From: Ruegeria lacuscaerulensis
Lineage (GTDB): Bacteria > Pseudomonadota > Alphaproteobacteria > Rhodobacterales > Rhodobacteraceae
Assembly (NCBI RefSeq): GCF_013034685.1
Contig: NZ_WQGO01000006.1
Coordinates: forward strand, 310,001-374,000
Length of the DNA stretch: 64,000 nt
Reading direction: 5' to 3'
Every line of letters starts with the position of its first letter. Within the stretch, counting starts at the first letter, position 1. The notes under the pieces were generated by a model, which was not told the origin of the DNA, did no database searches, and saw nothing but the letters and a program-made list of their open reading frames with translations. A program made the position numbers and the translations under genes. Shown in pieces: positions 20,931 to 56,397 of the stretch.

Positions 20931-20935
20931 GGATG
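20931..20935. repeat. Target-site duplication GGATG, gyrB side
   Basis: GGATG lies between the gyrB stop codon and the first base of the Tn7-like element. The same five bases follow the element's other end at 56393-56397. Five-base duplications are the hallmark of Tn7-type transposition. Confidence 0.9.
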
Positions 20936-21178
20936 TGTAGGTTTGCGCATAGCACTTCGCACACCCCATAAGTTTGCGTAGTTCACCCATAGTTTTGCGC
21001 TGCGCGTTTGTCTGCATTAGCGACGAATTCAATCAGTATATGGCTTAGTCGTTGCGGTTATGGCCCTTTGCATTGCTCAATCCCGCAAAGGGCCCCCCAA
21101 AGGAACCTTGGGGTCCATGCGGCCTTTTTGCTTGGATTCTCGCGAAAGTCTGCGGTGCGCATAAAGCGAACTTAGCAA
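20936..21178 (+). repeat. gyrB-proximal end of the Tn7-like element (copy 1)
   Basis: Motif copies with CATA cores at 20948, 20967 and 20988 are spaced 19 and 21 bp. About 220 bases of this end recur at 56399-56617 with few changes. The main difference is a 24-base segment at 21111-21134, between two TTGG copies, that the second copy lacks. Both copies contain the hairpin described at 21062-21094. Confidence 0.88.
21062..21094. other. Conserved hairpin inside the transposon end
   Basis: GGCCCTTTGC pairs perfectly with GCAAAGGGCC around a 13-base loop, without a U-tract. The second copy (56525-56557) keeps a 9-bp stem. It may stop or slow transcription arriving from gyrB, whose own terminator has been displaced. 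Confidence 0.5.
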
Positions 21179-21361
21179 ATACTCGCTAACTGTGCGGAAC
21201 CGATCTTGAATCCGGGATTTCATGCTGCCGCGCGGTTCGTTGAACCTGTTGGTCGAAGCAGGTGTAAATTCCCATCCGACTTGATCCGGCTAATCTCGAG
21301 ACTTTTGCGTGGCGTCGTATTGAGAACAGACACGCGTTTGGCGACATTCCTAGATAGTGGG

Positions 21362-22309
21362 ATGACCTCCGCTGATTCCATGCCTCAATCTACGGATCGC
21401 ACCCTTGCTGGCGTAGCGCTGATGCTTGGGTTTTGCCTGACTGCTCCCTTGCTGGATGTAGCTGCAAAACTCGCATCGGCCAGCGTGCCAGTTGGGCAGA
21501 TAACAGCTGCTCGCTTTGTGGTGCAGTGCGCGCTGATGTCACCGTTTGTCTGGATGATGGGACTTTCACTACGTGTGGCGCGCGGTGAATTGCTGGTACT
21601 TGTATTCCGTTCTTTACTCTTACTGTTCGCGACCTTTTGCTTCATTGCGGCAATCCGAGTAATGCCTCTTGCCGATGCGTTGGCAATTGTGTTTGTAGCG
21701 CCGTTTATTGTCCTGTTGGTCGGTAAGTTTTATCTTGGTGAAGATGTCGGCTCTCGTCGTGTCGGGGCAGCTCTTGTGGGGTTTGTTGGTGTTTTGTTCG
21801 TCATCCAACCTAGTTTCGCGGCTTTTGGCGCCGTCGCGCTAATTCCGCTTGGTACGGCAGTCGCTTTCGCTTTCTACATTCTTGTGACGCGGGGATTGTC
21901 GCGTCGGATGCACCCCGTGGCGCTTCAATTCCACACTGGCCTAATTGCGAGCTTGTTTTGTGTTCCAACCTTAATAGTTGCGCAAGGTTCTGGCTCTGAG
22001 CTGTTCGATCCCGTTTGGCCGACAGACGTCGCGTTGTTGTGGCTTTTCGGAGCTGGTTTTTTTGCGACCGTGAGCCATATGATGATGACATATGCGCTTT
22101 CCTTTGCCCCTTCTGCCACACTGGCTCCTCTCCAGTACTTTGAGCTGCCCGTAGCGACCCTGTTCGGCTATCTTGTTTTCAATGACTTTCCGAACATGCT
22201 TAGCCTGATTGGTATTGGCATCATCATCGGTGCAGGGCTGTACATGATACATCGAGAAAGGGTGGTAGCCAGACAGTTGGTCACAGAGCGCCCAGCACCT
22301 CCAATCTAA
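21362..22309 (+). CDS. DMT-superfamily (EamA) transporter
   Basis: This 315-residue membrane protein has about ten hydrophobic segments arranged as two EamA repeats (ALMLGFCLTAPLLDVAAKL at the start, LSLIGIGIIIGAGLYMIH at the end). Such carriers export metabolites across the inner membrane. I start at the ATG 21362; the frame is open 156 bases further up without family likeness. It is the first gene inside the element, 180 bases after the end repeat. The substrate is unknown. Confidence 0.82.
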   Translation: MTSADSMPQSTDRTLAGVALMLGFCLTAPLLDVAAKLASASVPVGQITAARFVVQCALMSPFVWMMGLSLRVARGELLVLVFRSLLLLFATFCFIAAIRVMPLADALAIVFVAPFIVLLVGKFYLGEDVGSRRVGAALVGFVGVLFVIQPSFAAFGAVALIPLGTAVAFAFYILVTRGLSRRMHPVALQFHTGLIASLFCVPTLIVAQGSGSELFDPVWPTDVALLWLFGAGFFATVSHMMMTYALSFAPSATLAPLQYFELPVATLFGYLVFNDFPNMLSLIGIGIIIGAGLYMIHRERVVARQLVTERPAPPI

Positions 22310-22400
22310 GTCCACACGCAATCGCGGCCTTTACAAATACGCATCATACACTAGTCCAGCTGCCGATATGGTGGAGCTTAGGATTGGGGCCGATAAGTTT

Positions 22401-23597
22401 TCAGGAGACTAAATTCCTGTTCTTCCAAATTGAAACGCGCAGCTCATCGCGCTTTTCGTATTCGGCCAGAGCTTCGCTGATCTCCCTATCCACCAGATCC
22501 TCTCGATCTTCGCCAAGATCTGTCATGCGCATGGTGAACCAAGCTGTCATGCCTCCTGGTGGCAAAGTGGCAAAGCGAGGAAAGACGGGATCTCTTTCTC
22601 CTGCTTGCCATGAGGCGGGCAGGGACGGATCAAGAACAAGGCCGCGCGCCAGTCCTGCCGCATCCACAGCCCTCGAAAGAATGGCTGCCTCGGCCTCCTC
22701 CTTCCTTTTGAATCCGCCTGTAGCCATAAGGGGGATTGACGTCAGTTGACGCGCGGCTTGGGCAAACTCGACATAGTAAGGACCTTTGCTTGAACGGTCT
22801 GAACTGGAAGGCGCACCAGGAAAATAGGTGCCTCCGCTGATGTCCAAAAGGTCAACACCCTTCCCCTCAAGTTCAGCTACAATCTTAAGGGCCTCCTCCT
22901 CAACCAGACCTCCATCAAGCTGATCGGTTGCATTGAGTTTTACCGCAACCACAAAGTCGGACGGAACCACCGCTCTGACGGCTTCAACCGTTTCGATTAG
23001 CAATCGCATTCGCGCCTGAATTGAACCACCGTAGGCATCCGTTCGATGATTGAAGAGTGGGGATAGAAACTGGCTCAGAAGAAATCCATGTGCGGCATGA
23101 ATTTGCACTCCGCCAAAGCCCAACTCGACCGAACGCAACGCAGTTTTGGCAAAACAACCCGGAACCGCTTGGATCTCGGCAAAGGACATGGCTTTGCTAC
23201 GGAAATCAGGGAATTCAATTTCGCTTGGCCCCTTGGGTTCGCCGATAGGCAGATGCGTTAGTGCCCCAGCGTGTCCGAGTTGCAACCAGAGTTGCGCTCC
23301 ATTTGCTGAGCCGCGTCGAGCGAGTTCGCGATACGACGCCTCATTGGCCTTTTCATCCAGAACCAGATTGCCAGGTTTCTCTGGGTAACTTGGATCACCT
23401 TGAACTTCCCCTATGATCGAAGCTGCCACGCCACCTTCGGCCCAACGTTCATAAAGCCGCATCTGTGCCAAGGTCGGGTTGCCCTGGCCATCCCCCAAGG
23501 AATCCGACATGGCCGACTTGATGATGCGATTCTTCAGAACGCGTCCGTTTGGAAGCGTCAGCGGCGTGAAGAGGGTTGGGCTCGGTGCGGTACGCAA
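22401..23597 (-). CDS. NADH:flavin oxidoreductase of the Old Yellow Enzyme family
   Basis: This FMN-dependent TIM-barrel enzyme of about 398 residues has KNRIIKSAMSD, LQLGHAGAL, the substrate/FMN loop IHAAHGFLLSQFLSP and FNHRTDAYGGS, all typical of the family. The best start is TTG 23597, five bases after AGGAGG; the frame is open 51 bases further upstream without such a site. It is divergent from a LysR regulator with a palindrome between them, so it is probably an inducible enone or xenobiotic reductase. Confidence 0.85.
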   Translation of the reverse strand: MRTAPSPTLFTPLTLPNGRVLKNRIIKSAMSDSLGDGQGNPTLAQMRLYERWAEGGVAASIIGEVQGDPSYPEKPGNLVLDEKANEASYRELARRGSANGAQLWLQLGHAGALTHLPIGEPKGPSEIEFPDFRSKAMSFAEIQAVPGCFAKTALRSVELGFGGVQIHAAHGFLLSQFLSPLFNHRTDAYGGSIQARMRLLIETVEAVRAVVPSDFVVAVKLNATDQLDGGLVEEEALKIVAELEGKGVDLLDISGGTYFPGAPSSSDRSSKGPYYVEFAQAARQLTSIPLMATGGFKRKEEAEAAILSRAVDAAGLARGLVLDPSLPASWQAGERDPVFPRFATLPPGGMTAWFTMRMTDLGEDREDLVDREISEALAEYEKRDELRVSIWKNRNLVS

Positions 23598-23610
23598 AGC
23601 ATGCCTCCTT

Positions 23611-23639
23611 GGGGTATCTATCAAAATTTGAGATACCCC
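23611..23639. promoter_or_regulatory. LysR-type operator GGGGTATCT-N11-AGATACCCC
   Basis: A perfect 9-bp inverted repeat with an 11-base spacer lies between the divergent oxidoreductase and LysR genes, just before the oxidoreductase ribosome-binding site. A weaker relative (TTGGGTATCCTAGAT) lies about 20 bases further towards the regulator. Confidence 0.7.
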
Positions 23640-23701
23640 GGATGACATCGGATGTTTATTGGGTATCCTAGATCAGATTTTGATAGTTTTAGGATCAAGT
23701 A

Positions 23702-24598
23702 GTGCAGAAAACAGAGCTGGAAATCCTCCTGGCCGTTGTTGATCACGGTAGTTTCTCTGCCGCAGCCAGAGCAATGGGGTATACCCCGTCTGCCGTTGGC
23801 AAGAGGGTGCATCAGCTGGAGGAGCGGTTGAAGGTGCCGCTTCTTGTCCGCTCGACCCGGCGCATGGCTTTGACCGATGCAGGCCGACGATATGTAGAAG
23901 AAGCACGGGACCTTTTTGCCCGTCTGACAGCGCTGGAAGAGGATATTTCCGATGATGCCTATACCTTGCGTGGCACGATACGCCTGACAAGTTCGGCCGC
24001 ACTTGGTCGCCTACACGTCGTGCCTATGGTCATTGAATTCATGGAGCGCTACCCGGAAGTCGAGATTGAGTTACTATTGACGGATAAAGTCATCGACCTG
24101 ATCGGCGATGGCTTTGATCTGGGCGTTCGCAGTGGCGTCTTACCCGACTCTTCCCTTGTCGCCCGTAAGCTGATGAGCAATCCACGAGTCCCATGCGCAG
24201 CGCCTGCGTATCTTGAACAGCACGGTTTCCCTGAAAGGCCCGAAGATCTTTCGGCGCATAGATGTCTGCGTCTGGGGCATGAAAGGCAAATTTCGGATTG
24301 GGGATTTACCCAACATCAAGGTGGCCATTCTCGGCTTGGTAGTGGATTCTCATGCAACAGCCTCGAAGCACTTCATGCGGCATGTTGCGCCGGACGTGGC
24401 ATCGCCTGGCTGCCAGAGTTCCTCACGTCAAACGATCTTCTGAACGGGCGCCTGATGCCTTTGCTAGAGGATTACTTAGCGTTGGACTCCGGCGGCGGCG
24501 TTTTCGTTCTGCGCCCGGAGACGAATTTTTTGCCGCATAGGGTGCGCACTTTTATTGACTTCCTGGCAGACCGTTTCGCTAAGGTCGGATCAAATTGA
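23702..24598 (+). CDS. LysR-family transcriptional regulator
   Basis: This 298-residue regulator has an N-terminal winged helix (LEILLAVVDHGSFSAAARAMGYTPSAVGKRVHQLEERLKVPLLVRSTRR) and a C-terminal substrate-binding domain like that of CrgA-type regulators. It starts with GTG after AGGA. It is divergent from the Old Yellow Enzyme gene, its probable target. Confidence 0.88.
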   Translation: MQKTELEILLAVVDHGSFSAAARAMGYTPSAVGKRVHQLEERLKVPLLVRSTRRMALTDAGRRYVEEARDLFARLTALEEDISDDAYTLRGTIRLTSSAALGRLHVVPMVIEFMERYPEVEIELLLTDKVIDLIGDGFDLGVRSGVLPDSSLVARKLMSNPRVPCAAPAYLEQHGFPERPEDLSAHRCLRLGHERQISDWGFTQHQGGHSRLGSGFSCNSLEALHAACCAGRGIAWLPEFLTSNDLLNGRLMPLLEDYLALDSGGGVFVLRPETNFLPHRVRTFIDFLADRFAKVGSN

Positions 24599-24829
24599 GC
24601 GGCGGAATGTGCTGTACTTCAGCATCTGGCGAAGTCTGCACGACGGCGGATCCTACATACTTAGGATCGGACATCGGTGACATGCGCAGTGGAAGATTGC
24701 TCTCGGCCCGGCACTCGGATCGGGAATGTCCTCCACGGGATGCCACCAACCGCTCTTCAATAGCGCAGAGAACGGCTGGAGAGAGCCCAAAGCGGACGGC
24801 TTGGACGCAGTTGAAAAAAATCATGGGCT

Positions 24830-25675
24830 TCAAAACTGCGTATTAAAGCCTGCGAAAATCTGCCACTTTGCTTGCCCAGAACCTCTGCTCGCGACGGAGT
24901 ACTGCGGTTCGACAAAGACGTTGTAGGTGATCTCTTTCTTGCCAAAAACTTGCCCAACACCTAAGCCGATTGGCACATTATAGCTGTCTGTTTCGAAGTC
25001 GTATGTCATTATCGGAGCCGACCTTAAGTATGTTCCTCCGCCGAGTTGATAGAACAGGAACGGTTGAAAAGCTCCGATATTCACGTCTTTTGCATCACTG
25101 TCACCTGCAAAACTTGCTTGCCACGTGAGCAGGTAACCGTATTGGAACTTCGGAGACGACGCATTGAACAACACATTTGCAATGCCAGCTGACCATTTCT
25201 TTGATCCCGACCCGTCTGTCGAGCCAGTCGGAGCTGTTAATTGTGGGCCGACACCAAAGCTTAACGCCGGATTTCCGGTATTGATCAGGTAAGCAGCAAA
25301 CACATTTAGGTCACCAACACCTGTCGATTTTTCGTCCGGCCCGGGGAATGAATTGACGGGTAGAGAAGCCCTCAAAATCCAATTGGATCCCCCCAAACTC
25401 ACCGGTTGCGCATATCTTAGCCAAAACTGGTTACCTGTCTGATCCGTTCCTGAAATATCGCCTATGTAGTAGTTTTGCACATTGATGGCCTTGAAGTTTG
25501 CCAGGGGATTATTCGCTTGGGCTGCGGCTGATGCCGCGTCGTTCTCTTGTGCCGCTACTCGGTTACCTGGTGCTGTTGACACGCCCAGAACGATGAAAAA
25601 ACTTATGCAAAACCCGTTCAGTAAATCTCGGGTCGAAGCTAAAGTTGTGGAAGGCATCTTCGGGGTAGTGCCCAA
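24830..25675 (-). CDS. Probable outer-membrane beta-barrel protein
   Basis: This protein of about 281 residues has a signal peptide ([15 protein letters not shown]...RVAA, cleavage near QENDA). The mature part has many alternating polar/hydrophobic strands ([36 protein letters not shown]) and ends in Phe, as outer-membrane barrels do. TTG 25675 is the best start, seven bases after AAGGAG. It lies downstream of the HAD and arylsulfatase genes on the same strand and may form a porin for their substrates or products. The exact family was not recognised. Confidence 0.65.
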
Positions 25676-25805
25676 TTTGCTTCTCCTTGGCGAAGTCAAC
25701 ATCATCACTATGAACTGCGTAATCGGGCGACTACGCGGGTTGGCGACATACGATTGAGGCAACAAAGAGCGCCTTGCGAGTTTACTTCAGGGCTAGTCAA
25801 TAGGA

Positions 25806-26804
25806 TCATTCCGACCCGTCTGCCCGGATCTTGTTCCAATCCTTTGCCATATCCACCACCACCCAACCTTCCTGAGACGCAAGCGGCATCACTTTGTCAG
25901 TGTGTTTGTCATAGGCGAACTCCCGATCTGCGTCGGTGTGATGCACCAGTATGGACATTCCACCGCCCAAAGCTGTGTTTTGCAGCATCTGTTGATCACC
26001 GTTTGAGTTTCCCGCTGCAAATATGGGTGTGCGGCCGATAACCTTTTTGATCAGGCGAGGTTTTCCGTCCCAGTTGTTCAAGTGATCGACGTGATAGGTT
26101 CGTACAAACTGCGGCTCGCCGTTTTCGATTACGAATTCTTCTCGCACGGAGGTGCCGAACACGCGCTCTGGGGGAATGCCGTAAAGGTCCTCGGCGACAA
26201 CCCTTAAGAATGCACCCTCATCAGCGGTGATAATGTAAACGAGGAACTCGTTGGCCTCTAAATAGCGTATCAATTCCAACATCGGTTGGTAGATCAGACC
26301 CTCTATGCCAACGCCGAGTTCCGGGTGCTTGAAGTTCGCTGTGAAATCTTTCGCCCAACTGGCATAGGTTTCAGCAGACATTCCGCCAAAAGGGGCAGCA
26401 AACAACTGGCTGGCCAGACTTTCATACTCAGAATTGCTATAAAGTTGTTCAAAATAGGAAGCATCTTTTTCGGCCACCGACTTCCACGGCTCGCGTTTCG
26501 TCAGCGTTTCATCGGCCTCAATTTGTCGTTTGATTTCCGAAAAGATTCCATATGCATGTATATACATTGGTTTTTCGGTCCATAGCGTTCCGTCATTGTC
26601 AAAGACGGCAAAGCGCTGTTCCGCAGGGACGAATGTGTCAGAGGTCGGTTCAGTTGTCTTTTTAATAAACGAGACTATTGCCTGTTTGGCGCCCGCGTCG
26701 TTCCACGATGCAAGTGGTTCGGCAATCGTTTTCGAACAAAAAGCAGCCGCAAGCGCTGAAACAAAAACAAATACATAGACTGGGTTACGAGAACGCGTCT
26801 TCAT
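25806..26804 (-). CDS. Exported HAD-superfamily phosphatase-like protein
   Basis: This 332-residue protein has an N-terminal signal sequence (VYVFVFVSALAAAFCSKTIA). HAD motif I is FAVFDNDGTLW with both aspartates, motif II lies near VYIITADEG, and motif III/IV is IFAAGNSNGDQQML. It is thus a periplasmic phosphohydrolase related to phosphoserine-phosphatase-like HADs. The start at 26804 is preceded by GGAG. It follows the arylsulfatase by 70 bases. Confidence 0.78.
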   Translation of the reverse strand: MKTRSRNPVYVFVFVSALAAAFCSKTIAEPLASWNDAGAKQAIVSFIKKTTEPTSDTFVPAEQRFAVFDNDGTLWTEKPMYIHAYGIFSEIKRQIEADETLTKREPWKSVAEKDASYFEQLYSNSEYESLASQLFAAPFGGMSAETYASWAKDFTANFKHPELGVGIEGLIYQPMLELIRYLEANEFLVYIITADEGAFLRVVAEDLYGIPPERVFGTSVREEFVIENGEPQFVRTYHVDHLNNWDGKPRLIKKVIGRTPIFAAGNSNGDQQMLQNTALGGGMSILVHHTDADREFAYDKHTDKVMPLASQEGWVVVDMAKDWNKIRADGSE

Positions 26805-26874
26805 CCGAAACTCCGAAAAGTAGCTTCTGTTGTCTTGCGAGTACGGGACGAACGATGCGCCCCGTACTATTTTT

Positions 26875-28521
26875 TTAGTTTCCTGTTGGCAGACCAATCT
26901 TGAAGCCTTGCTTGTTTAGTTGGTCGCGTACGACTTCAAACCGGTGGTATTCGCTCAGAGTAATTGGACCGGAATAAGACTCGCTTTGAACCGGGCGCGG
27001 TGGATATTCGATGTAGGTTTTGACCACCCGCTCCAGCTCACCCATCAGCGTAGGAACAGTCCAAGTGTTCTCACGACCGGTTGTCATGAAGATGTCGTAG
27101 CGCTCCATCGGGTCTTCCCAAAGGTTAAAAACCTGCGGCACGGTCGCGACGTACTTCTGAGGGCCACGCCATCCCAACTCGGCAGCCGGAGCCTCAGACC
27201 CCGCCCGTGCTCCGTTATCGCCTCTGATGTTGAACACAGCCTTCCAAGGCCCGACCCGCACCGCGCCCGGGGCGAGTTCATTTTCGGTGAAATAGGCCCA
27301 GCTATTTCGCTGCGGGTCAGCCTCACCAAAGAGGATTGGTGCCATATCGATACTGTCGAAGATAGTGGGTTGGCCATCCCGGTCGTTTTCAGGCAACTGA
27401 ACACCAGCCAGGTGAGCAAATGTAGCCATTAGATCAGTCCCGCCCGCGATGTCATGAGACTTGGAGCCGGGCTCGATTTTACCGGTCCATTTGGCGAAGA
27501 ACGGCACACGGTAAGCGCCTTCACGATCAGTTCCTTTGGTTCCGCGGAAAGGTGTCATACCAGCATCTGGATGAACATCCTGCCAGGCCCCATTGTCCAC
27601 CGTGTAGATAACAAGAGTGTTCTCTTCGATGCCAAGGTCCTTGACCTTGTTCAGAATCTGTCCGGTATGATGATCAAGTTCCACAACCTTGTCGCCGTAC
27701 TTGTTTTTGACCGCGGATTTCCCTTCGAAATCAGGGGACGGAAGATTTGGTTGGTGGTTGGCGGCCCAGTTGATCGACATAAAGAAAGGCTGTTCGAGCC
27801 CGGCCAGCCGTTCCAGCTCTGCAACTGCTTTTTCAGCACCAACCGCATCCAGCTTGGCCAAATCCGCTGTTGTCATATCGTCTATTGTCAGCACCTCAGT
27901 CGCGGGGCTTCCCGCCTCACCCTCAAACACACCGGTAGTGGATTGTTTGAAGAATTCCCGTTGCTCATCCGTCATCTGAACGTGCCAGTCCGGCAGCGCA
28001 TAGGTGTAGGCGTTGAGGTGATAGAGAAAGGTGTTCTCCATCTTGTCATAACCATGCGCTATTGGCAGAGCGTAATCAGACTCTCCCAGATGCCACTTTC
28101 CCATAAAGTATGTGTTGTAGTCGGCTTGCTTCAGAACCGAGGCGAGTGTCCACTCTGCGGCAGGCAGCCCTCCACCCTGACCCTGAAATGCAACCGTAGT
28201 CATGCCTGAACGATTTGGGTAGCGGCCGGTCTGCATTGCCGCACGACCCGGTGTGCATGAAGACTGCGCGTAGAAATCCGTGAACATCATTCCGTCCTTG
28301 GCCAATTGGTCAAGGTTTGGGGTATCCATTCCACGGGCGGCGCCTCCATGATAGGCGCCCAGATCCCAGTAACCGGTATCATCAGAGACAATAAGAATTA
28401 TGTTAGGCTTCGATCCAAAAGTCGAAAGCGATGACGGATCAAAGTCTTGTGCTTTGGTGGGGGTAGAGATCGTAACAGTAATTGCGGCAGCAAGTGCTGC
28501 CGGCAGCATTAACCTCGGCAT
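26875..28521 (-). CDS. Periplasmic arylsulfatase (formylglycine type)
   Basis: This 548-residue sulfatase has a signal peptide (MPRLMLPAALAAAITVTISTPTKAQ), metal-binding VSDDTGY (Asp47-Asp48) and the core CTPGRAAMQTGR. In that core Cys89 is the residue converted to formylglycine (CxPxR). GGGAGGA six bases upstream fixes the start. It hydrolyses sulfate esters in the periplasm and needs a formylglycine-generating enzyme from elsewhere in the genome. It heads a minus-strand set with the HAD protein and the barrel protein, which looks like a sulfated-substrate acquisition cluster. Confidence 0.9.
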   Translation of the reverse strand: MPRLMLPAALAAAITVTISTPTKAQDFDPSSLSTFGSKPNIILIVSDDTGYWDLGAYHGGAARGMDTPNLDQLAKDGMMFTDFYAQSSCTPGRAAMQTGRYPNRSGMTTVAFQGQGGGLPAAEWTLASVLKQADYNTYFMGKWHLGESDYALPIAHGYDKMENTFLYHLNAYTYALPDWHVQMTDEQREFFKQSTTGVFEGEAGSPATEVLTIDDMTTADLAKLDAVGAEKAVAELERLAGLEQPFFMSINWAANHQPNLPSPDFEGKSAVKNKYGDKVVELDHHTGQILNKVKDLGIEENTLVIYTVDNGAWQDVHPDAGMTPFRGTKGTDREGAYRVPFFAKWTGKIEPGSKSHDIAGGTDLMATFAHLAGVQLPENDRDGQPTIFDSIDMAPILFGEADPQRNSWAYFTENELAPGAVRVGPWKAVFNIRGDNGARAGSEAPAAELGWRGPQKYVATVPQVFNLWEDPMERYDIFMTTGRENTWTVPTLMGELERVVKTYIEYPPRPVQSESYSGPITLSEYHRFEVVRDQLNKQGFKIGLPTGN

Positions 28522-29259: not shown

Positions 29260-29307
29260 GCAGCTCAGCGACTACAAGCTAGCTCAACTACCCTTTGATA
29301 CTTGTAC

Positions 29308-30135: not shown

Positions 30136-30148
30136 CGGTTATTTCACC

Positions 30149-48410: not shown

Positions 48411-49352
48411 TCATTTCACAAGGTCTAAGCGTTTCAGCACCGCATTCGGGGATCTGATCTCTTTCGGAAGCGACTTGAAGTTTACCGACCTTTCGAAATC
48501 GGGTCCTCGATATACTGCTATCCCAAACTCTCTGTTCGGCTGGAACGTAACATGAGTGAAGCTGTGAGGTGATCTGGCGCTATCGCCAATAAGCCGCCGC
48601 GGACCACCTCCCAAACAAGCTTGAGAGACATAAGCCACACCGTCTTTCCAACCGGGATAGAAGGCATGATGGTGGCCTGACAGATGCAGAACGACACCGC
48701 TTTCCAAATAGATTTTTTCAAGTGTCGGATCACCGATGATTTCGCGCTCGCGCTGGATCGCGAAGGGCCAAAGTGGGAGGTGACTGAAAGTGACAATCGG
48801 GTCCCCGTCTGCACCCAGTTCCTGTAGCCGGTCCTGCTGATCACCGGATAGCGGGCCCAGGGTCGTTGCATCCAGAGACGCAAACGTAATGCCCTGCATC
48901 TCAAATGCGTAGAAGAACGGGTAGTCATCCGAAACCAGGAAGTCGACGCTTGGTTTTCTCGGAGTCCATTCCTCTGCGTATATTTTTCTTTCACGCTCGA
49001 ACCCTCGGTAGGCGGAGGCATCATGGTTTCCTGGTGTGACCGCAAATGGAATGCCGGCAGCCTCTAAAGGATCTGATACGGCCTCGTGAAACGCCTTCCA
49101 CATCTCTCTGACCTGTTTGTCTGACAAGTTGGGAATGCGCTGTCCCGCGACCATATCGCCCGTCGAAATCACCAGATCTGGATCAATCTCGACTATCCGC
49201 TTAATCGCCTTGTCGACGCGGGCATCGTATTTCACCGAACCATAGCTGCCGTTCAGATCCGATATGACGATAACATCCAATGCCGCCGCTTTGCAGGCGA
49301 TCAGAGTGGTCCAAATGAACGCCGCGAAAAGCGTAGAAAGCCTACGGGTCAT
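48411..49352 (-). CDS. Exported calcineurin-like metallophosphoesterase
   Basis: In this 313-residue protein the N-terminus is a signal sequence with a possible lipobox (LIAC), so it is a periplasmic or lipid-anchored enzyme. Metal-binding motifs are VISDLN, STGDMV, GNHD, SHLPL and GHHHAF. It overlaps the end of the kinase-like gene by 11 bases, indicating joint expression. It might remove phosphates placed by that protein. Confidence 0.85.
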   Translation of the reverse strand: MTRRLSTLFAAFIWTTLIACKAAALDVIVISDLNGSYGSVKYDARVDKAIKRIVEIDPDLVISTGDMVAGQRIPNLSDKQVREMWKAFHEAVSDPLEAAGIPFAVTPGNHDASAYRGFERERKIYAEEWTPRKPSVDFLVSDDYPFFYAFEMQGITFASLDATTLGPLSGDQQDRLQELGADGDPIVTFSHLPLWPFAIQREREIIGDPTLEKIYLESGVVLHLSGHHHAFYPGWKDGVAYVSQACLGGGPRRLIGDSARSPHSFTHVTFQPNREFGIAVYRGPDFERSVNFKSLPKEIRSPNAVLKRLDLVK

Positions 49353-50775
49353 TGCAATCCACTGTCTCTACCTCGGTGTTGTTTCTCAAAAAGAATGCGA
49401 CAGGATCCAAGTCGAACATCAAATCGCCATTTGAGCAATTGTCCTGGAGAATGGACGTTGCCAGCTCGGTGTTTTTTACAACTTGTGCAATCTGCCTGTC
49501 TGACAACCCAAGGCTTTGCGATAGCCAGCCGTAGACGGGACCTTGAGATTGAAGATCACTATTCAAAGCGACCAAGCGCCGATACACGCTTGGAGAGAAG
49601 TGCCGCATTTTCTCCAGCATTTGAGTGGATTTCGCGAAGTTGGCATACTCGACCCGCCCACCAGCATCGTTGTCGTTTAGATTGCTGCGACGGATCAATA
49701 ATGCGTCGGCGGGAATATCTCCATCGTTTGGCTCATGGTGTTTGGCTTTCTTGTGCTTCAGCTTTCCGTCTTCGACCCAATACCAATAGGGTGTGAAGTC
49801 TATGTTTCCTACGCGGTCCTGCTGGCTAAAGATAAAGTCGAGGAGAACAATCTCGGTCAGTTCTTGCATCCAAAATGCCATCTGTTGGTCACTGACATCG
49901 GGACCGAGATCCTTGTTGATCATCCGGTCTTTTCGGCCTTCTTTCACGCCCTCTGCAATGGCCTCTAGCAAGGGTTTTGAAGATCGCAAAGCCAAGAAAG
50001 CGGGGGTTTCCTGAAAATCGCGGTTCTGACCTTTCCCCCAACCAGATTTGCGGGTGCCGTTGATTTCCGAGCCGTATCGATGCCCGGGACTGTCAAGCAG
50101 TACACCGTAAATTTGCGTTCGATCCGAGGTGAACAGATCATCTGTCGGTTGGTATGAGTTCGGGTCGGAATCCGCAGCTGCGAAGACCCGCCAGCCTTCA
50201 TGGTTCATGCGCCCGCCATGAGAGCCACCGGAAATCGCAAGGCCAGGTTCGGCAACCTCGGAAAAATGCGCCTGGGCGTCCATGCTGCGCCAAACAGCGA
50301 CTGGAACTTTTACAGTCGCGTCGAAATATCTGGAGAAATGATAGTAAAGCAGTGAAGACGTGGAAAAGGTTCCACTGGTGCCTTTTTGGTTCATGGTGGA
50401 CTTGAATTTAGCCACCCTGTCCTTAGCCAGATCTTTTGCCGCCTTCCCCTCTTTGCAAGCGTTTCTCTCGAATTCAGAACGGTTCCCCACGTAAGGTCCT
50501 TCCGAAATATCGTAGACTGCCATTCCTGGGCTGGTGCTCCAGGTTTTTGGGCAAATAGCAATTTCGGAGGCATAGAAATCGATCTCGCAATAGGCCGTTT
50601 CTTCCTCAAGATCGCTTTTCTTATACTCGCCCGTTGGAACTTTTTCGATCCGAATACAGCGTTCAGTAACGCCGTTGGGACTATCAAATGTCGTGGCTTC
50701 ACCGAGAACATCGTCGTTCGCCCACAAGACAGTGGGTGCAATTAAAGCAAGTGACCCCAGAAGATTGAACTTCAT
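49342..50775 (-). CDS. Secreted Fam20C/CotH-like kinase-related protein
   Basis: This 477-residue protein has a signal peptide (MKFNLLGSLALIAPTVLWA). The segment SSLLYYHFSRYFDATVKVPVAVWRSMD matches the N-lobe of HipA/Fam20-type kinases. DFIFSQQDRVGNI (Asp320, Arg321, Asn324) resembles the catalytic loop and LNDNDAGG (365-373) the metal-binding loop. Four cysteine-containing stretches suggest disulfides. It lies 19 bases after a phosphatase-like gene and overlaps a metallophosphoesterase gene. I infer a periplasmic kinase from motif order, not from a database match. Confidence 0.62.
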   Translation of the reverse strand: MKFNLLGSLALIAPTVLWANDDVLGEATTFDSPNGVTERCIRIEKVPTGEYKKSDLEEETAYCEIDFYASEIAICPKTWSTSPGMAVYDISEGPYVGNRSEFERNACKEGKAAKDLAKDRVAKFKSTMNQKGTSGTFSTSSLLYYHFSRYFDATVKVPVAVWRSMDAQAHFSEVAEPGLAISGGSHGGRMNHEGWRVFAAADSDPNSYQPTDDLFTSDRTQIYGVLLDSPGHRYGSEINGTRKSGWGKGQNRDFQETPAFLALRSSKPLLEAIAEGVKEGRKDRMINKDLGPDVSDQQMAFWMQELTEIVLLDFIFSQQDRVGNIDFTPYWYWVEDGKLKHKKAKHHEPNDGDIPADALLIRRSNLNDNDAGGRVEYANFAKSTQMLEKMRHFSPSVYRRLVALNSDLQSQGPVYGWLSQSLGLSDRQIAQVVKNTELATSILQDNCSNGDLMFDLDPVAFFLRNNTEVETVDCNDP

Positions 50776-50794
50776 TTGGATAGTCCTCCCAATA

Positions 50795-51439
50795 TCATTT
50801 GGGGCAAATCGCTGCCTGTTGCTCGTTGGAGATCTTCAATTTTGGGTCGACACTGAAGTTGGAAAATTTTGAGTCAATCCACTGGTCGCACCCGCCTGAA
50901 CAAGGGGCTCCGTTTCGGGCATCATTCCAATATTCCTTGGCCCTTTCTTCTGTCCAACCGCAAAACTGAACGAGCGCCATCGCCGACAATGCACCTGAGG
51001 AATGAACGCCCCACATGCAGTGCACCAGAACAGGGCCCTTTCCAGGGTTTTTAATCACCTCGTGTATGGACGCCATGACAGCATCGGGTCGAGAGGATCT
51101 GGCGCTCTGATAGTCAAAGGATCCGTTTCCGCAGCTGGTGCGACCGTATTCAGTGTTTTTGCCGAAGTCGGCATAAAACCCGGTTGAAAACCCTTCGCCG
51201 CACAGAGTTTCGCGTTGACCTTCACTTAGGCCAGTTCGATCCTTGTCGCCGCCCTTGAAACCGGATCGATACAACACTCCGCTTAAGACTGGGCGAAAGA
51301 AAGCGACACCATCAATGCCTCCGTCACCACCCTTTGAAAGCATTTGACTTTTGCTTGGACCGCCATTTCGACTGGTCACGTCAGAATTCGCAGCGGTTGC
51401 GAGAACACCAATGAATATGAGGGACGCCAAAAACCGCAT
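50795..51439 (-). CDS. Exported dual-specificity phosphatase-like protein, catalytic Arg replaced
   Basis: In this 214-residue protein a signal peptide (MRFLASLIFIGVLATAANS) precedes a phosphatase-like fold with VLVHCMWGVHSSG. Cys141 is in place, but the P-loop arginine of the CX5R motif is Ser147. Activity may be reduced, altered or lost. AAGGA precedes the start. It is the first of the three-gene set with the kinase-like protein and the metallophosphoesterase. Confidence 0.72.
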   Translation of the reverse strand: MRFLASLIFIGVLATAANSDVTSRNGGPSKSQMLSKGGDGGIDGVAFFRPVLSGVLYRSGFKGGDKDRTGLSEGQRETLCGEGFSTGFYADFGKNTEYGRTSCGNGSFDYQSARSSRPDAVMASIHEVIKNPGKGPVLVHCMWGVHSSGALSAMALVQFCGWTEERAKEYWNDARNGAPCSGGCDQWIDSKFSNFSVDPKLKISNEQQAAICPK

Positions 51440-51559
51440 GCCAAATCCTTTCTATTCTTGAACCTTTAATGCTCAAACTCTTGCGACCTGATAGTCTCTC
51501 GGAAAGGCTAGTTCATGACAACCATATCAAGTGGGCAAATAGCTTTCCGCTGTGAAACT

Positions 51560-51733
51560 TTAGATGGGCCACACGAGATTGATGATAACGACGACTACGA
51601 AGTAGGCTAGAACAACTTTCCAGTTCCATTGGTGCTTGTTTTCTTCGTTGATCACGCCAGCCGATTTCAATGCCAGGTTAGTGATGATTAAGGCGACAAC
51701 GATGACCGCCGCGTGTGCCAGGTCGAATTGCAA
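51560..51733 (-). CDS. Small two-pass membrane protein, 57 residues
   Basis: MQFDLAHAAVIVVALIITNL... has two membrane helices around a polar loop (NEENKHQWNWK) and ends NLVWPI. TTG 51733 follows AAGGAG by seven bases, a strong ribosome-binding site. Function is unknown. Confidence 0.6.
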   Translation of the reverse strand: MQFDLAHAAVIVVALIITNLALKSAGVINEENKHQWNWKVVLAYFVVVVIINLVWPI

Positions 51734-51775
51734 GTTTGGGCTCCTTCTCTTGGATTTGGGATTGATGGAAATTTG

Positions 51776-52081
51776 TCAGCAGTCACCTGATGGCAGCATA
51801 GCTACATCTGAGTACCTTCCCTCAGACGTCGTGATCTGAGCACATGCACCTGTATCCTTGTTAAACCAGTACGAGGTCAGCCCTTCGCTTCGGATGAGTT
51901 CAAATCCGAGACTTTGGATGCCCATTTCAGCTTGGCCCGCTCTTGCCCCTTCAAATGGCGAAAGATCGCTAGAGCTGCCCACAGTTGGTGCACTTGCATC
52001 CACCGATCCGCCACTCTCTTCGCATGCTGCAAGTGCAGAAATACATACCGCGCCGATCACCATTAGGACATTGGTTCTCAT
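51776..52081 (-). CDS. Small lipoprotein
   Basis: This 101-residue protein has a lipobox LAAC after a hydrophobic stretch. The C-terminal part (SLGFELIRSEGLTSYWFNKDTGACAQITTSEGRYSDVAMLP) looks like a compact domain with two cysteines. The first gene of a run of small exported proteins on this strand. Function is unknown. Confidence 0.7.
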   Translation of the reverse strand: MRTNVLMVIGAVCISALAACEESGGSVDASAPTVGSSSDLSPFEGARAGQAEMGIQSLGFELIRSEGLTSYWFNKDTGACAQITTSEGRYSDVAMLPSGDC

Positions 52082-52133
52082 GTGTTTTTCCTGGCTGTTT
52101 TGGGAACGTGTTCAAGGGCTTCTGGTCGATCAC

Positions 52134-52748
52134 CTATTCAATTCCGAAAATTACGTTGTAGCCGACGGAAGAGTTGCTGCGATTGATAACCTCCACAACA
52201 TGATCACCAGATTGCCAAAGCTGCCCTCGATACTCCTTGTCCGCCGACATTAATCCCAACAGTTCAGAACCATCGGGGTTACGAATAACGTAGTCTAAGG
52301 AGCCATTTCGCGGAGCAACGCGGACGTAAAGAAACTGTTCGTTTTTTGCCCCGAGAACATATTGCTGTGACGCTCCGGGCGCGAGTTCACCAACGAGTTC
52401 GGCGCCGGTGGAACCAGCATCGAATTTGACACGTTGGCTACCAGTAGACCCGGCGGCGCCTGCCATGGCTCCACCGCCATCATCCATCGCTTCGACAACC
52501 GACATCTCGCCGATGCTACCATCCTTGTACGCGATGCAGCGCCAAAGTGTTCCGCCTGCGTCTCGTAGCATGACGAGCGTGCCCGCTTCTGAGAACTCTG
52601 AGCTTTCAATCGTACCTGATTGACCGTCTGGTCCTCCAACCTGTCGCAAATGATCGATACACGCGTCGTCTGCTTCAGACATTGCAAAAGAAGCCGTGCC
52701 TGCGATTGCGAACATCGGTGCGAGGAATTTGAGTACAGCGAATTTCAT
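52134..52748 (-). CDS. Secreted protein with FSEAGT domain and C-terminal beta-sandwich
   Basis: In this 204-residue protein the signal peptide ends near TASFA. The N-terminal domain (C...SSEFSEAGTLVMLRDAGGTLWRCIAYKDGS) matches the lipoprotein at 53467-53766. The C-terminal part (YVLGAKNEQFLYVRV, DHVVEVINRSNSSVGYNVIFGIE) resembles pre-peptidase-type beta-sandwich domains. ATG 52748 follows AAGGGA. Function is unknown. Confidence 0.68.
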   Translation of the reverse strand: MKFAVLKFLAPMFAIAGTASFAMSEADDACIDHLRQVGGPDGQSGTIESSEFSEAGTLVMLRDAGGTLWRCIAYKDGSIGEMSVVEAMDDGGGAMAGAAGSTGSQRVKFDAGSTGAELVGELAPGASQQYVLGAKNEQFLYVRVAPRNGSLDYVIRNPDGSELLGLMSADKEYRGQLWQSGDHVVEVINRSNSSVGYNVIFGIE

Positions 52749-52803
52749 CAGATGGTCCCTTGCTGGCTGATCCTTAGAGTTTTGTTCCGTACAAAGCGGA
52801 ACC

Positions 52804-53103
52804 TCACTTCGCGTCTCGTAACTTTGACAGAAATTCATCGCATGCCTGCGCGCTGCCGACGATCTCGTCCGTCGTTTCAATTCCTTGCAGTGACGCCATT
52901 TCCGAATTTACGCGGTTGAGGATCTGATCCGCTTGCTCGGCGGTGATAAGGTTCTCAGCTTGTGCTCCTTTCAATGTGGTGCAGACACCGGCGGACAAGC
53001 CTGTCGCAACGCCGACACCCACCGCGGCCCCGCCACCCAAGGTCATCGCCCCAACCACGCCGAGGACGAGCCCGATCACAATTCCCAAGATTACTTTTCC
53101 CAT
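52804..53103 (-). CDS. Small exported or membrane-anchored protein
   Basis: This 99-residue protein has an N-terminal hydrophobic, glycine-rich segment (VILGIVIGLVLGVVGAMTLGGGAAVGVGVATG) followed by a helical region with two cysteines (CTTLKGAQAENLITAEQADQILNRV...CDEFLSKL). GGGAGG before ATG 53103 is a strong site. Function is unknown. Confidence 0.62.
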   Translation of the reverse strand: MGKVILGIVIGLVLGVVGAMTLGGGAAVGVGVATGLSAGVCTTLKGAQAENLITAEQADQILNRVNSEMASLQGIETTDEIVGSAQACDEFLSKLRDAK

Positions 53104-53141
53104 GTTTTCCTCCCTTTTGGTGAGAAAGAGTTCAGCCACCA

Positions 53142-53405
53142 CTACTGGCGCAATCTGCGTGCCCATCTGCAAATCAAAACCAGCGCTAACAGGTTGAGCG
53201 CCGGAGCAATCGCCGCGAACCACGGCTTGGCGGAATCCGAAAATAAGTCCGCCACAAGTATCCAAGGTAGTCCCAACGGCAGCAGGAACACTCCGGACAA
53301 AGGGTCTCGTTCCTGTCCCAACCAGCCAAATGTGCCCGTCAAGAATGCAACCAACGCCAATAGGTACATGACCGCGAATACGATGATGGTGGTTCTACAA
53401 ACCAA
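53142..53405 (-). CDS. Small integral membrane protein
   Basis: This 87-residue protein has two to three hydrophobic helices (TIIVFAVMYLLALVAFLTG, FLLPLGLPWILVADLF, IAPALNLLALVLICRWA). TTG 53405 follows GAGG. It is part of the run of small envelope genes. Function is unknown. Confidence 0.55.
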   Translation of the reverse strand: MVCRTTIIVFAVMYLLALVAFLTGTFGWLGQERDPLSGVFLLPLGLPWILVADLFSDSAKPWFAAIAPALNLLALVLICRWARRLRQ

Positions 53406-53466
53406 GTCGAGCCTCAGCTGATCAAGCCAGTGCTGCGCAGCCGTTTTCAGCTACGCAGCAGACAGG

Positions 53467-53766
53467 TCACAATGCGCCTTCGTCGCCCAGGAACTCGATA
53501 CCAGCTGTCGCGCCATCACTGTAAGCAATGCAATTCCAAGGAGCACGATCCTCGCCAACGCCGACTGTGACCTGTGTTCCCGCCTCGCTAAACGCGGATG
53601 AGAGCACCACGACTTGCGAATTGTTCGTCGTGTTAGCTACATCTCGCAAACACGCCTGCTGAGCCGGCGTGAGCTCGGCGGACGCGCTTGATGTACTCGT
53701 ATCGTCGCAGGCCGCAAGCAGTGCGAAACATGTGGCGCCTGCAATCATCACCATCTTGTTAGACAT
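53467..53766 (-). CDS. Small lipoprotein with FSEAGT domain
   Basis: This 99-residue protein has lipobox LAAC. The mature part (CLRDVANTTNNSQVVVLSSAFSEAGTQVTVGVGEDRAPWNCIAYSDG) is a paralogue of the N-terminal domain at 52134-52748, sharing C, S.FSEAGT.V and W.CIAY.DG. AGGGAG before the ATG fixes the start. Function is unknown. Confidence 0.7.
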   Translation of the reverse strand: MSNKMVMIAGATCFALLAACDDTSTSSASAELTPAQQACLRDVANTTNNSQVVVLSSAFSEAGTQVTVGVGEDRAPWNCIAYSDGATAGIEFLGDEGAL

Positions 53767-54326
53767 TTTCTTCTCCCTCTGGTTCCCTTGAAATTAGTGA
53801 AATTGGATGCGCTTGTTTGATGCTCCCGCGTCTGTGCAGCCAATTGAACATACCTTGATCCTGTGACTACCATTCCCAAAACTTGCCGCGGGGGGCTTGG
53901 TCGGCGGGAAGATATTTCGTTGACTATCGGGGCCGACAATAACGTGTGAAGGCCGAATGACGTCACTGGCAAATGCTAGAGCAAACTCTGGACAGAGGGC
54001 GAGTACGTTTAGTCTGAGCATCGCGTCCTCCCAGCGCTCAATCATTGTAAAGTGCCTTCCGACCGCCAGCACTCACTCCAGCAGTCGGAAGGGCTCGGCA
54101 CAGCGAGCAGCAACGACAATAACGGAGGTAAAATAAAGTTGTGTCGAATTCGCATGTTTGAATCTAATTTCTAATAAATCAATATTTTTTCCGCGCGTAA
54201 GTTTCTCTACGCTCTCGTACGATAGGCCTCTGCGTTCAAACAAAAAAGTAAGTGGGAGCTACGAGTGTGTTCCCCTGAGCGGCGAAGCGATTTGAGGCCG
54301 CACAAAAACAATGAAGGGATTGAAAG
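53767..54326. other. Intergenic region with a 9-bp inverted repeat
   Basis: In these 560 bases CCTTCCGAC (54055-54063) pairs perfectly with GTCGGAAGG (54084-54092) around a 20-base loop. It has no U-tract, so it could be an operator or RNA stem. A very AT-rich stretch at 54150-54200 is the probable promoter region of the DUF805 gene. A minus-strand frame at 53794-54072 exists but lacks coding character. Confidence 0.4.
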
Positions 54327-54842
54327 ATGGGATTTGGTGAAGCCGTTAAGACGTGTTTCTCGAAATACTTCCAGTTCTCCGGTCGGGCTATACGCTCAGA
54401 ATACTGGTGGTTCTTCTTGTTTGTGGTTGTCGTGAGTGCTGCCTTAGCTGTGCTGGATACGATTATATTCGGGACCAACCCCGAAACAGGCCAGGGATCT
54501 CGGGTCCTGTCCTCTGTTTTCCAGCTGGCTGTTCTCATACCTATGCTGGCCGCCGGTTGGCGAAGGCTGCATGATACAGGACGACCTGGCTGGTATTTGC
54601 TGCTGCCGATGGCGCTCAGCATTACAACGCTATTTGTTATGCTGGGTGGGGTAGCGTTCTTTTCGGTATTGGAGCAAGGGACCGAAAACCCCGATGCATT
54701 GCGAGGACCTGCGGCCGTCCTGGGCGTGACCGGTATTGTTGTTGTCTCAATCCTTCAATTGGTTCTGTCCATTCTGATGATCTGGTGGCTGACACGACCT
54801 TCCCAAGAAGGCGCAAACGAATACGGCGAACCTGTTTCCTGA
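54327..54842 (+). CDS. DUF805-family membrane protein
   Basis: In this 171-residue protein the motif FQFSGRAIRSEYWWFFLF, followed by GWRRLHDTGRPGWYLLL, is diagnostic of DUF805. About four membrane helices are visible. It is first of three plus-strand genes with the two secreted proteins downstream. Function of the family is poorly defined. Confidence 0.85.
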   Translation: MGFGEAVKTCFSKYFQFSGRAIRSEYWWFFLFVVVVSAALAVLDTIIFGTNPETGQGSRVLSSVFQLAVLIPMLAAGWRRLHDTGRPGWYLLLPMALSITTLFVMLGGVAFFSVLEQGTENPDALRGPAAVLGVTGIVVVSILQLVLSILMIWWLTRPSQEGANEYGEPVS

Positions 54843-54915
54843 TCTGGCTGTCCGGGCAATTGGCTGGAACTTCTGCTGAACGACAGTGCGAACCGTAACT
54901 CAATGGAGAGAAAAA

Positions 54916-55686
54916 ATGAGCTGCAAAACCATTTCCATTGGAATGCTACTGATGGCAGTGGCGACCACAGCATCAGCGGAGTGGTCGTTCAGCTCCGGGC
55001 CCAACCCCAATGCATTTATTCAGACAGGAAACATGACGCTGGAACTTCAGTGTGACCGTATTCGCTTTGCTCCGGCTGGATTCGAGGACAGCCAGGACAT
55101 TGCGGACAAGCAGGGGCTTTCCATTCGTTTCTTGAAGAACGGCACCACCGAAGTTGGAGCATTTCAGGTTGGCGCAGAAAACGCTGCCGTGCAGATCGTC
55201 GACAACTATCCCGTCGAGGTCAGTTTCAATAGTCAGCCGGACTATGGTTTTGTTCTGGACCAGCTTGCGGCCAATGCATCGGTTAATCTGTCGATGATTG
55301 ATCAAGATGTCAGCTACGGAATCTTTGACTTAAAAGGTTCCAGCGCGGCAATTCGGTCCCTTCGTTCCGCCTGCGATTCAGGTGCTAGCCAAGGGGCCTC
55401 CTACGAAGCACCCGAAGGCATTGTCTATTGTGGTGGCGGAGCGATAAAACGCCAAATCGAATATGTAATTCTGGACAATCCAGAGGGGGAGTGGGACGCG
55501 CGAGTAGCGGTTAACGGCGATTCGATCAGAGCCATGACGGTCTACAGTTACTTCGGAAACTCTGAGCCGCCGGCGGGATTTGTTGTCGCCCTGCTTGGGG
55601 AAGACAGGTCCGAATTTCTGATTTTTAACGAAGGCTCGGCAAACTGGCTGGAATACGGGGACTACAGGTATGAACAATGCAACTGA
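54916..55686 (+). CDS. Secreted protein of unknown function
   Basis: This 256-residue protein has a signal peptide (ISIGMLLMAVATTASA), a central beta-rich domain and four cysteines in the mature part (e.g. CDRIRFAP, YCGGGAIKRQ, terminal YEQCN). GGAGAG precedes ATG 54916. Its last 17 bases overlap the next gene, so they are translated together. Confidence 0.7.
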   Translation: MSCKTISIGMLLMAVATTASAEWSFSSGPNPNAFIQTGNMTLELQCDRIRFAPAGFEDSQDIADKQGLSIRFLKNGTTEVGAFQVGAENAAVQIVDNYPVEVSFNSQPDYGFVLDQLAANASVNLSMIDQDVSYGIFDLKGSSAAIRSLRSACDSGASQGASYEAPEGIVYCGGGAIKRQIEYVILDNPEGEWDARVAVNGDSIRAMTVYSYFGNSEPPAGFVVALLGEDRSEFLIFNEGSANWLEYGDYRYEQCN

Positions 55687-56206
55687 AGCCACCTTCCAAC
55701 CGGCTTCCCAATTGGCAAGCTACTTGAAACGTTTGGTATCTGCGATCCTGCTTGGTTCGAACCTGGTTTGGACCTCACCAGTTGTCGCGGCTGACGTTTC
55801 GCAACTTCCAACCGGTTTGCGAGCAAAGGTTGATCTGGCGATGCGGGCATGCGCGGAGTTCAACAACGGTCAGTTTGACTTAGATTGGGGCGCGGTTGAA
55901 AGGGTCGATCTCGACGGAGATCTACAACGCGACTGGGTTTTGAATGAGTCTGATTTTGCGTGTTCGAGCACCGCATCTCTTTACTGCGGAACTGGCGGAT
56001 GCATGTCGCACTTCTTGATTGAAGAGGAGGTTCAATCCTTGCTCAACCAGGGCTGGACGGTTGTTGATTTTGGGCGTCAACGCGTTGTTGTTGCGGATAT
56101 TCATGGATCCAATTGCGACGGAATAAACCCAACGCCTTGCGTCACCGCTAGTATTTGGGATGCGGACGCTAAGACGTGGCGCTCATCTGCTGGCGATTGG
56201 GAATAA
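55670..56206 (+). CDS. Secreted cysteine-rich protein
   Basis: This 178-residue protein has a signal peptide ending at PVVAA. The mature part contains VDLDGDLQRDWVLNESDFACSSTASLYCGTGGCMSHFL, where an Asp-rich turn before CGTGGC suggests a calcium-binding or disulfide-stabilised fold. It overlaps the upstream secreted-protein gene. It is the last gene before the far end of the element. Confidence 0.7.
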   Translation: MNNATEATFQPASQLASYLKRLVSAILLGSNLVWTSPVVAADVSQLPTGLRAKVDLAMRACAEFNNGQFDLDWGAVERVDLDGDLQRDWVLNESDFACSSTASLYCGTGGCMSHFLIEEEVQSLLNQGWTVVDFGRQRVVVADIHGSNCDGINPTPCVTASIWDADAKTWRSSAGDWE

Positions 56207-56264
56207 GTTGCATTTGAAAATTGCAGATAAGCCACAGCAGCTGGTTTGTTCGATAGGTTCTCCG

Positions 56265-56392
56265 TGGCACGCAAACTTATGGGCAAATCGTTCAATCTTA
56301 TGCGCAAATACCGCGCAGAGTTATGGGCAAGATTCCCAGATTTTCTTCAATGAAAACAATGTTGGGAATGCAGCGTTATGAGCGCACCTACA
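56265..56392 (-). repeat. Far end of the Tn7-like element
   Basis: Read from the tip inward the sequence starts TGTAGGTGCGCTCATAACGC. Motif copies with CATA cores (TATG on the plus strand) lie at 56377, 56322, 56299 and 56278, giving gaps of 55, 23 and 21 bp. The innermost copy shares CCCATAAGTTTGCG exactly with the second motif of the gyrB-side end, in opposite orientation. Confidence 0.87.
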
Positions 56393-56397
56393 GGATG
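56393..56397. repeat. Target-site duplication GGATG, far side
   Basis: These five bases directly follow the element's ...CCTACA tip and are identical to 20931-20935. Confidence 0.9.

Follow-up and report, generated by a model that had tools for sequence, protein, structure and literature searches.

The window considered here is a 64,000-nucleotide stretch of the genome of Ruegeria lacuscaerulensis, a member of the Rhodobacteraceae (contig NZ_WQGO01000006.1, positions 310,001 to 374,000). Directly behind gyrB it carries a Tn7-like transposon, designated E1, whose insertion is very probably directed to the 3' end of that gene by its own TniQ protein. A first-pass annotation made from the letters alone had described a complete element of ~35.46 kb placed 5 bp past the gyrB stop codon, with inverted TGTAGG tips at 20936 and 56392 flanked by GGATG, repeated motifs in both ends and a tnsA-tnsB-tnsC-tniQ operon inside. 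All of this was borne out by the sequence at both ends and by the operon, whose four frames (30211-35652) are open throughout and overlap. The features, in window coordinates, are as follows.

18444..20930, plus strand: gyrB (Pfam DNA_gyraseB and others; stop TAG 20928-20930); its 3' coding end is the putative attachment (TniQ-binding) site
20931..20935, no strand: GGATG, gyrB-side copy 1 of the target-site duplication, directly 3' of the gyrB TAG
20936..56392, plus strand: E1, complete Tn7-like transposon of 35,457 bp, defined by tips, duplications and operon
20936..21000, plus strand: gyrB-proximal end of E1, TGTAGG tip and three TnsB-like sites (8, 27, 48 bp; at most 3 mismatches)
30211..30918, plus strand: tnsA, 235 amino acids; weak family match; E42 and D96 invariant in 9 sequences including that of E1
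30915..32873, plus strand: tnsB, 652 amino acids, DDE transposase; D258, D342 and E378 invariant in 7 sequences including that of E1
32861..33859, plus strand: tnsC, 332 amino acids, TniB-type AAA+ ATPase; Walker residues K53 and D140/E141 invariant in 7 sequences including that of E1
33856..35652, plus strand: tniQ, long TnsD-like form, 598 amino acids, putative gyrB reader; Pfam TniQ at 8-122
35320..35711, plus strand: common 3' cassette, the last ~111 codons of tniQ and ~59 bp past its stop; 88-91% DNA identity to genomes G336, G295 and G315
56277..56392, minus strand: gyrB-distal end of E1, four TnsB-like sites and the tip (TGTAGG on the minus strand)
56393..56398, no strand: copy 2 of the duplication, GGATG, plus one T; GGATGT is found again on contig C16
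56399..64000, plus strand: element E2, older neighbour, left end (84% identical to that of E1) followed by cargo

The left tip of E1, TGTAGGTTTGCGCATA, begins at 20936 after the first GGATG, and the right tip, ...TATGAGCGCACCTACA, terminates at 56392, where GGATG follows at 56393-56397. The consensus TGTAGGTKYGC has three matches without mismatch in the 64 kb, namely the two tips of E1 and the left end of a further element at 56399. If one mismatch is tolerated there are five matches, where chance would give 2.85, so that the motif on its own proves nothing. The TnsB-like sites, scanned as TTGCSCATAA with at most three mismatches, number three in the left end and four in the right (8, 63, 86 and 107 bp); this lax scan additionally gives one forward (117) and three opposite-strand sites in the left end and one opposite-strand site in the right. 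At two mismatches the ends hold one and three sites, respectively, where the window averages 0.14 per 160 bp, and three such sites are reached in 1 of 399 window segments. These repeated motifs are probably bound by TnsB. The ends thereby present the hallmarks of Tn7-like elements: TGT...ACA tips, several TnsB-like sites, asymmetry (three versus four) and a 5-bp target-site duplication, the last in a pattern that recurs in other genomes.

The operon completes the picture, as it combines a TnsA/TnsB heteromeric transposase, TnsC and TniQ/TnsD. The TnsA assignment is the weakest, with a match to NCBIfam TnsA_like at 2.7e-5 and 23.8 bits (cut-off 110), in the expected place of the operon; no similar solved TnsA was found by sequence search. 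Pfam matches in the operon are Mu-transpos_C, TniB and TniQ. Among solved proteins TnsB matches I-F3 TnsB (E 2e-34) and Tn7 TnsB (E 7e-9). Solved TniQ proteins align with the N-terminal part of the E1 TniQ, which also has a weak match to Pfam HTH_17 at 308-335. Among plasmids, no close relative of this TniQ (best 25% identity, 5 records) and no match to the E1 left end were found.

E1 does not stand alone. The left end of E2, which reads GGATG-T-TGTAGGTTTGCGCATAAC from 56393, is 84% identical to that of E1 over ~245 bp; position 56397 is therefore a junction between two elements and not a return to native DNA, and E1 as a single, unstacked element was rejected. E2 shows no right-end tip (by pattern) and no tns gene up to the contig end, 8.7 kb beyond the window. 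Contig C16 of the same genome holds another right end, then GGATGT, then a left end with a decayed tip. All three left-end copies found in this genome thus lie at gyrB or behind the same GGATGT, and E1 stands nearest to gyrB in a stack that comprises at least three elements. The simplest history would be three successive insertions at one spot, the newest adjoining gyrB; the order of the outer elements is presumed, the DNA between contigs C30 and C16 being unassembled. Since the stacked elements have left ends 84% alike, target immunity would not be absolute between relatives.

The gyrB 3' end across genomes

Occupied sites were sought with a pattern consisting of the gyrB C-terminal codons, a gap of 2-8 bp and TGTAGG, and the reversed pattern served as control. 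The pattern matches in 37 of 54 genomes of the genus, in 36 of 394 genomes (35 of 393 genera) of a family sample, and in 45 of 292 genomes of an order-level sample; the control gave 0 in each case. The order-level sample shares genomes with the other two, and all of its 45 matches are listed under this family. Despite the freedom of 2-8 bp, the gap between the gyrB stop and the tip is 5 in 56, 6 in 14 and 4 in 1 of the 71 occupied genomes, while the DNA behind the tip comprises many different sequences. A near-fixed distance, one orientation and a conserved neighbouring gene are again hallmarks of Tn7-like elements, the gene here being gyrB instead of the glmS of glmS-type Tn7. In the last 120 bp of gyrB the non-wobble positions are mostly invariant and the wobble positions variable among these 71 genomes, which were chosen by a pattern that itself fixes the last codons of gyrB. 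These counts support the earlier proposal that the gyrB 3' end is the attachment site.

The pattern probably underestimates occupancy. Among the 17 pattern-negative genomes of the genus, five (G296, G338, G343, G344 and G346) have variant tips followed, by eye, by TnsB-like repeats, so that genus occupancy is probably at least 42 of 54. The pattern also missed genome G192, whose gyrB ends in LDI and has a TGTAGG tip at +5. A family search of 61 genomes gave as its best 30 gyrB loci the window's own, one congener and 28 other genera; among these 28 listed, the tip is present in five (G025, G047, G038, G002 and G056), decayed to TATAGG in G044 and absent in 22. Furthermore, CTACA joined to the genome's own gyrB-side 5-mer was found downstream in 6 of 71 genomes, whereas 200 shuffles of the 5-mers among genomes averaged 0.6 and never exceeded 3; G073 is entered twice in this test. 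The match of G295 in this test was judged spurious, having no CCTACA tip and, by eye, no TnsB-like repeat.

Arrays like that of the window, which the first-pass annotation had not described, occur in relatives. The fetched DNA was scanned for head-to-tail junctions (right tip CTACA, N4..6, left tip TGTAGG), and strand-doubled rows were collapsed by hand. There are 16 distinct junctions with known gyrB-side sequence, this genome included; 12 share at least four contiguous bases with their own gyrB-side sequence in either orientation, and nine share all five. The uncollapsed script count is 12 of 27 rows, against an average of 0.58 and a maximum of 4 in a control with the sites of other genomes. 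Additionally, five of nine right ends with TnsB-like sites in the fetched arrays are followed by gyrB-side bases, at ~46.4 and 78.1 kb from gyrB in G295, at ~24.6 and 61.6 kb in G351, and for four bases in G317. In G295 an own-type left end stands even ~117 kb from gyrB; the junction bases there differ. The junction of G073 agrees only in inverted form, and behind its gyrB (L016, L017) the tns operon is likewise inverted relative to gyrB, with tniQ matches lacking the middle, an arrangement consistent with an inversion between array ends.

Several further observations concern the same spot. Directly upstream of gyrB, at window positions 13285-18410, lie dnaA, dnaN, a recF-like gene and a TetR gene, a neighbourhood which places the array beside a likely replication origin. 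Very short inverted structures of two fused tips are seen by eye behind gyrB in G340 (36 bp), G308 (34 bp) and G245 (62 bp), and the 34-bp form also on G309:C7; they are perhaps scars of lost elements or terminator-like relics. Junctions reading GATTT or GATCT with nearly the same right end occur in three genomes (G313:C16, G313:C42, G309:C25 and G359:C32) without matching the gyrB sites, and maybe represent a composite unit or a second target. Genomes G302 and G360 have no tip behind gyrB but hold genes that match E1 cargo by eye. In G302, G348 and G356 a block starting at a tRNA-like sequence begins at differing distances and may be native DNA.

Proposed target reading and the tniQ cassette

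The long, TnsD-like TniQ of E1 would recognise the conserved 3' coding end of gyrB and direct TnsC and TnsAB to insert the element in a single orientation at 5 bp (occasionally 4 or 6) beyond the stop, with duplication of 5 bp. Transposition is probably of the cut-and-paste type, and E1 may well be active. As gyrB is left intact by the insertion, the site stays usable; later elements would enter between gyrB and the earlier ones, building arrays spaced by the same 5-6 bp with the newest nearest gyrB. The anatomy, the duplications, the near-fixed spacing, the recurrence in many genera, the arrays and a tniQ cassette common to two lineages can be read from the DNA itself; that TniQ itself binds gyrB DNA and that the cassette is its reader are the conditional parts. 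We assign a probability of about 0.88 to the reading as a whole, namely that E1 is a Tn7-like transposon directed by TniQ to the gyrB 3' end and building arrays there.

The cassette, a second addition to the first-pass annotation, is a DNA block of 392 bp common to two diverged lineages. Over TniQ residues 1-480, E1 and the G336/G315/G295 lineage share ~33-56% identity in segments of 60 residues and their synonymous sites are saturated, whereas residues 488-598 are ~94-96% identical, with synonymous divergence (dS) of 0.41-0.48 and nonsynonymous divergence (dN) of ~0.03. Between E1 and G336, for example, codons 488-598 give dN 0.028 and dS 0.48, and codons 1-480 give dN 0.55 with dS saturated. 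This contrast indicates that two lineages recombined and that strong purifying selection acted afterwards, and the cassette is likely the gyrB-recognising part of TniQ. Such a role fits the suggestion, made in PMC10293859, that TnsD C-terminal regions help to recognise the attachment site. Orphan copies of the cassette also exist, one as a 117-residue fragment in G366 and one with a stop on G359:C25.

A broader proposal can be built on this, and it is offered tentatively, at somewhat short of even odds: the C-terminal ~111 residues of TniQ would be a portable gyrB-reading module swapped between two deeply diverged Tn7-like lineages, so that natural transposons could pass target specificity among themselves in cassette form, and the position behind gyrB would be a main gateway for large accessory-gene arrays by the origin in Rhodobacteraceae. 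The exchange itself is demonstrated for two lineages only. Alternatively, the near-identity may be a mere by-product of homologous recombination between lineages and say nothing on target reading, an explanation that we take seriously without giving it an even chance. Such elements stand in tandem within one array, the identity extends ~59 bp beyond the tniQ stop into non-coding DNA, and the gyrB-located TniQs of G298 and G192 have divergent C-termini of their own (61% and 43% identical, dN 0.36 and 0.62). Against this by-product explanation, dN/dS in the cassette is ~0.04-0.09 (E1 versus G355, G336, G315 and G295), whereas the sister pair E1/G355 has 0.16 over the remainder of tniQ, which argues that the protein is unusually constrained here, as expected for the reader of a fixed target.

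Transposase genes stand behind part of the occupied sites. Operons tnsABC-tniQ of E1's own family lie behind gyrB in G192, G295, G298 and G355. Broken or incomplete ones are present in G336 (tnsB split by a stop), G315 (tnsC split by a stop), G353 (no visible tniQ) and G073 (also inverted), and fragments in G366, G350 and G301. At ten loci the orientation of tnsA could be compared, and it runs along gyrB in nine and against it in one (G073). The genus holds 43 TniQ matches in 29 of 54 genomes. Scored with a profile of gyrB-located TniQs, 26 of 27 TniQ loci not at gyrB stay within 41 bits and one (G346:C23) attains 546; as the profile was built from the gyrB-located copies, their own high scores arise by construction and only the low scores elsewhere are informative. 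The TniQ of G311:C15, outside this scoring, matches the cassette at 44%. Elsewhere in the genome of E1 lies another TniQ gene, distinct from that of the operon (G000:C23:12539-12934).

The cargo of E1 resembles an EamA-type transporter, an OYE-type oxidoreductase, a LysR regulator, an arylsulfatase, an autotransporter and a nucleotide cyclase (NCBIfam, all below curated cut-offs), and includes a DUF2779 protein (Pfam). No CRISPR-like repeats were found in E1, there being no direct repeats of at least 20 bp within 120 bp. PADLOC, run on ten E1 cargo proteins and hence on part of the cargo only, found no cas effector or defence genes among them apart from weak Cas4 matches of the DUF2779 protein. 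To this extent E1 shows neither the CRISPR array nor the cas effectors that define a CRISPR-associated transposon. A small cargo protein (window 28803-29225) has by eye a close homolog beside the C16 right end (L006 7999-8457), which suggests cargo common to the stacked elements. ARAGORN calls a 94-base tRNA-Ile(tat) at 39066-39159 within the cargo; it overlaps reading frames, has no Rfam match at gathering score and is probably a relic or a false call.

Evidence weighed against gyrB targeting

Several results weigh against E1 and its relatives being directed to gyrB by TniQ. Sixty of the 71 occupied sites have no tns match in the fetched stretch (20 of the 71 stretches are shorter than 5 kb), of the 37 genus genomes that match the pattern only six have a gyrB-type tniQ behind gyrB, and in other genera Pfam detects no TniQ at all in 20 of 35 occupied genomes, so the maker of most occupied sites is not visible. 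Elements there may have decayed after insertion, or may have been moved in trans. The first-pass annotation had proposed a search of other Rhodobacteraceae for the tip together with this tniQ; the tip is present in 34 of 392 other genera of the family sample. It had also foreseen empty sites in related genomes: across the family 22 of the 28 listed genera are without a tip, whereas no empty site was found in the same species or genus, and 24 congeners plus the 9 remaining pattern-negative genomes show no shared native neighbour behind gyrB. The same ends at unrelated loci, which it had named as grounds for doubt, do in part occur, since own-type ends lie on contigs or at other places not demonstrated to be at gyrB (G355:C4, G351:C1:3104267, G309:C4 and others). 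Moreover, four of the 16 junctions do not repeat gyrB-side bases (G295 TCGAGT, G309 and G313 GATTT, G359 GATCT), a 17th, TTGT in G338, which had no assigned site and stood outside the script count, does not match its TTATTT, and four of the nine right ends with TnsB-like sites do not match either. The divergent C-termini of G298 and G192 belong here as well, as does an alignment-based structure prediction of TniQ too poor to use (predicted local distance difference test, 45).

A hotspot behind gyrB could also arise from some factor other than TniQ reading gyrB, such as a CRISPR guide, near-origin replication or tolerance behind an essential gene. The array does adjoin dnaA-dnaN-recF, the many sites without tns matches leave room for such a factor, and Tn7 relatives with replication-linked and guide-RNA pathways are known, partly from PMC11406308. 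However, tolerance or replication would scatter insertions, and a gap of 4-6 bp in all 71 genomes with the same orientation at nine of ten tnsA loci speaks against this; the missing CRISPR-like repeats and the absence of a cas effector among the ten scanned proteins speak against a guide. We consider such a factor improbable. It is hardly credible that TGTAGG belongs to a native structure behind gyrB, such as a terminator hairpin, and only looks like the tip of a transposon: the fused-tip structures of 34-62 bp would suit it, whereas the tip is missing in 22 of the 28 listed genera, some with plain hairpin terminators by eye, several different TnsB-like repeat families follow the tips (by eye), and tns genes are present in some loci. 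TniQ-directed insertion at the gyrB 3' end is accordingly the reading preferred here.

Comparison with known Tn7-like systems

E1 belongs to a known kind of element, and its attachment site is apparently new. No published report of gyrB as a Tn7-type attachment site was found among titles and abstract openings, supplementary survey tables being outside that scope, and a term search gave no mention of gyrB or gyrase in the main text of PMC10293859, PMC11406308, PMC8649781 and PMC3478194. In PMC12452197, gyrB appears as a phylogenetic marker.

If gyrB represents a new class of attachment site, the range of targets known for Tn7-like elements becomes wider. The gyrB site would also account for the high variability of the island locus next to the probable origin in this widespread family, where a single conserved position gathers mobile cargo, in one genome over a length of at least 78 kb. 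Furthermore, the tniQ cassette offers a natural experiment on DNA reading by proteins of the TnsD type, of use for site-specific insertion tools, and in Ruegeria and its relatives the position behind gyrB might be usable as a neutral site for insertions.

Tn7 itself encodes TnsABCD, inserts at glmS in one orientation, carries several TnsB sites per end and duplicates 5 bp. E1 resembles it in having TnsA, a DDE TnsB, an AAA+ TnsC, TnsD/TniQ, multiple TnsB-like sites per end and a 5-bp duplication, and in lying just past a conserved gene in one orientation. It differs in its location at gyrB instead of glmS and in a TnsB that is nearer to I-F3 than to Tn7; no TnsE was identified in E1, and no search aimed at TnsE was made. 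The gene parE, a paralog of gyrB, is a type II topoisomerase B-subunit gene. A parE-targeting TnsD is named in PMC11406308, and E1 is comparable in that its TniQ/TnsD would direct insertion beside a gene of this kind. Unlike the parE-targeting elements, it lies at gyrB, has one TniQ, lacks CRISPR-like repeats and occurs in Rhodobacteraceae. Other attachment-site classes of Tn7-like elements, including Tn6022/comM and tRNA genes, are described in PMC10293859. E1 shares with these the combination of a dedicated selector protein and a conserved chromosomal site, whereas the genes targeted there are others and the selector of Tn6022 is a separate TnsF.

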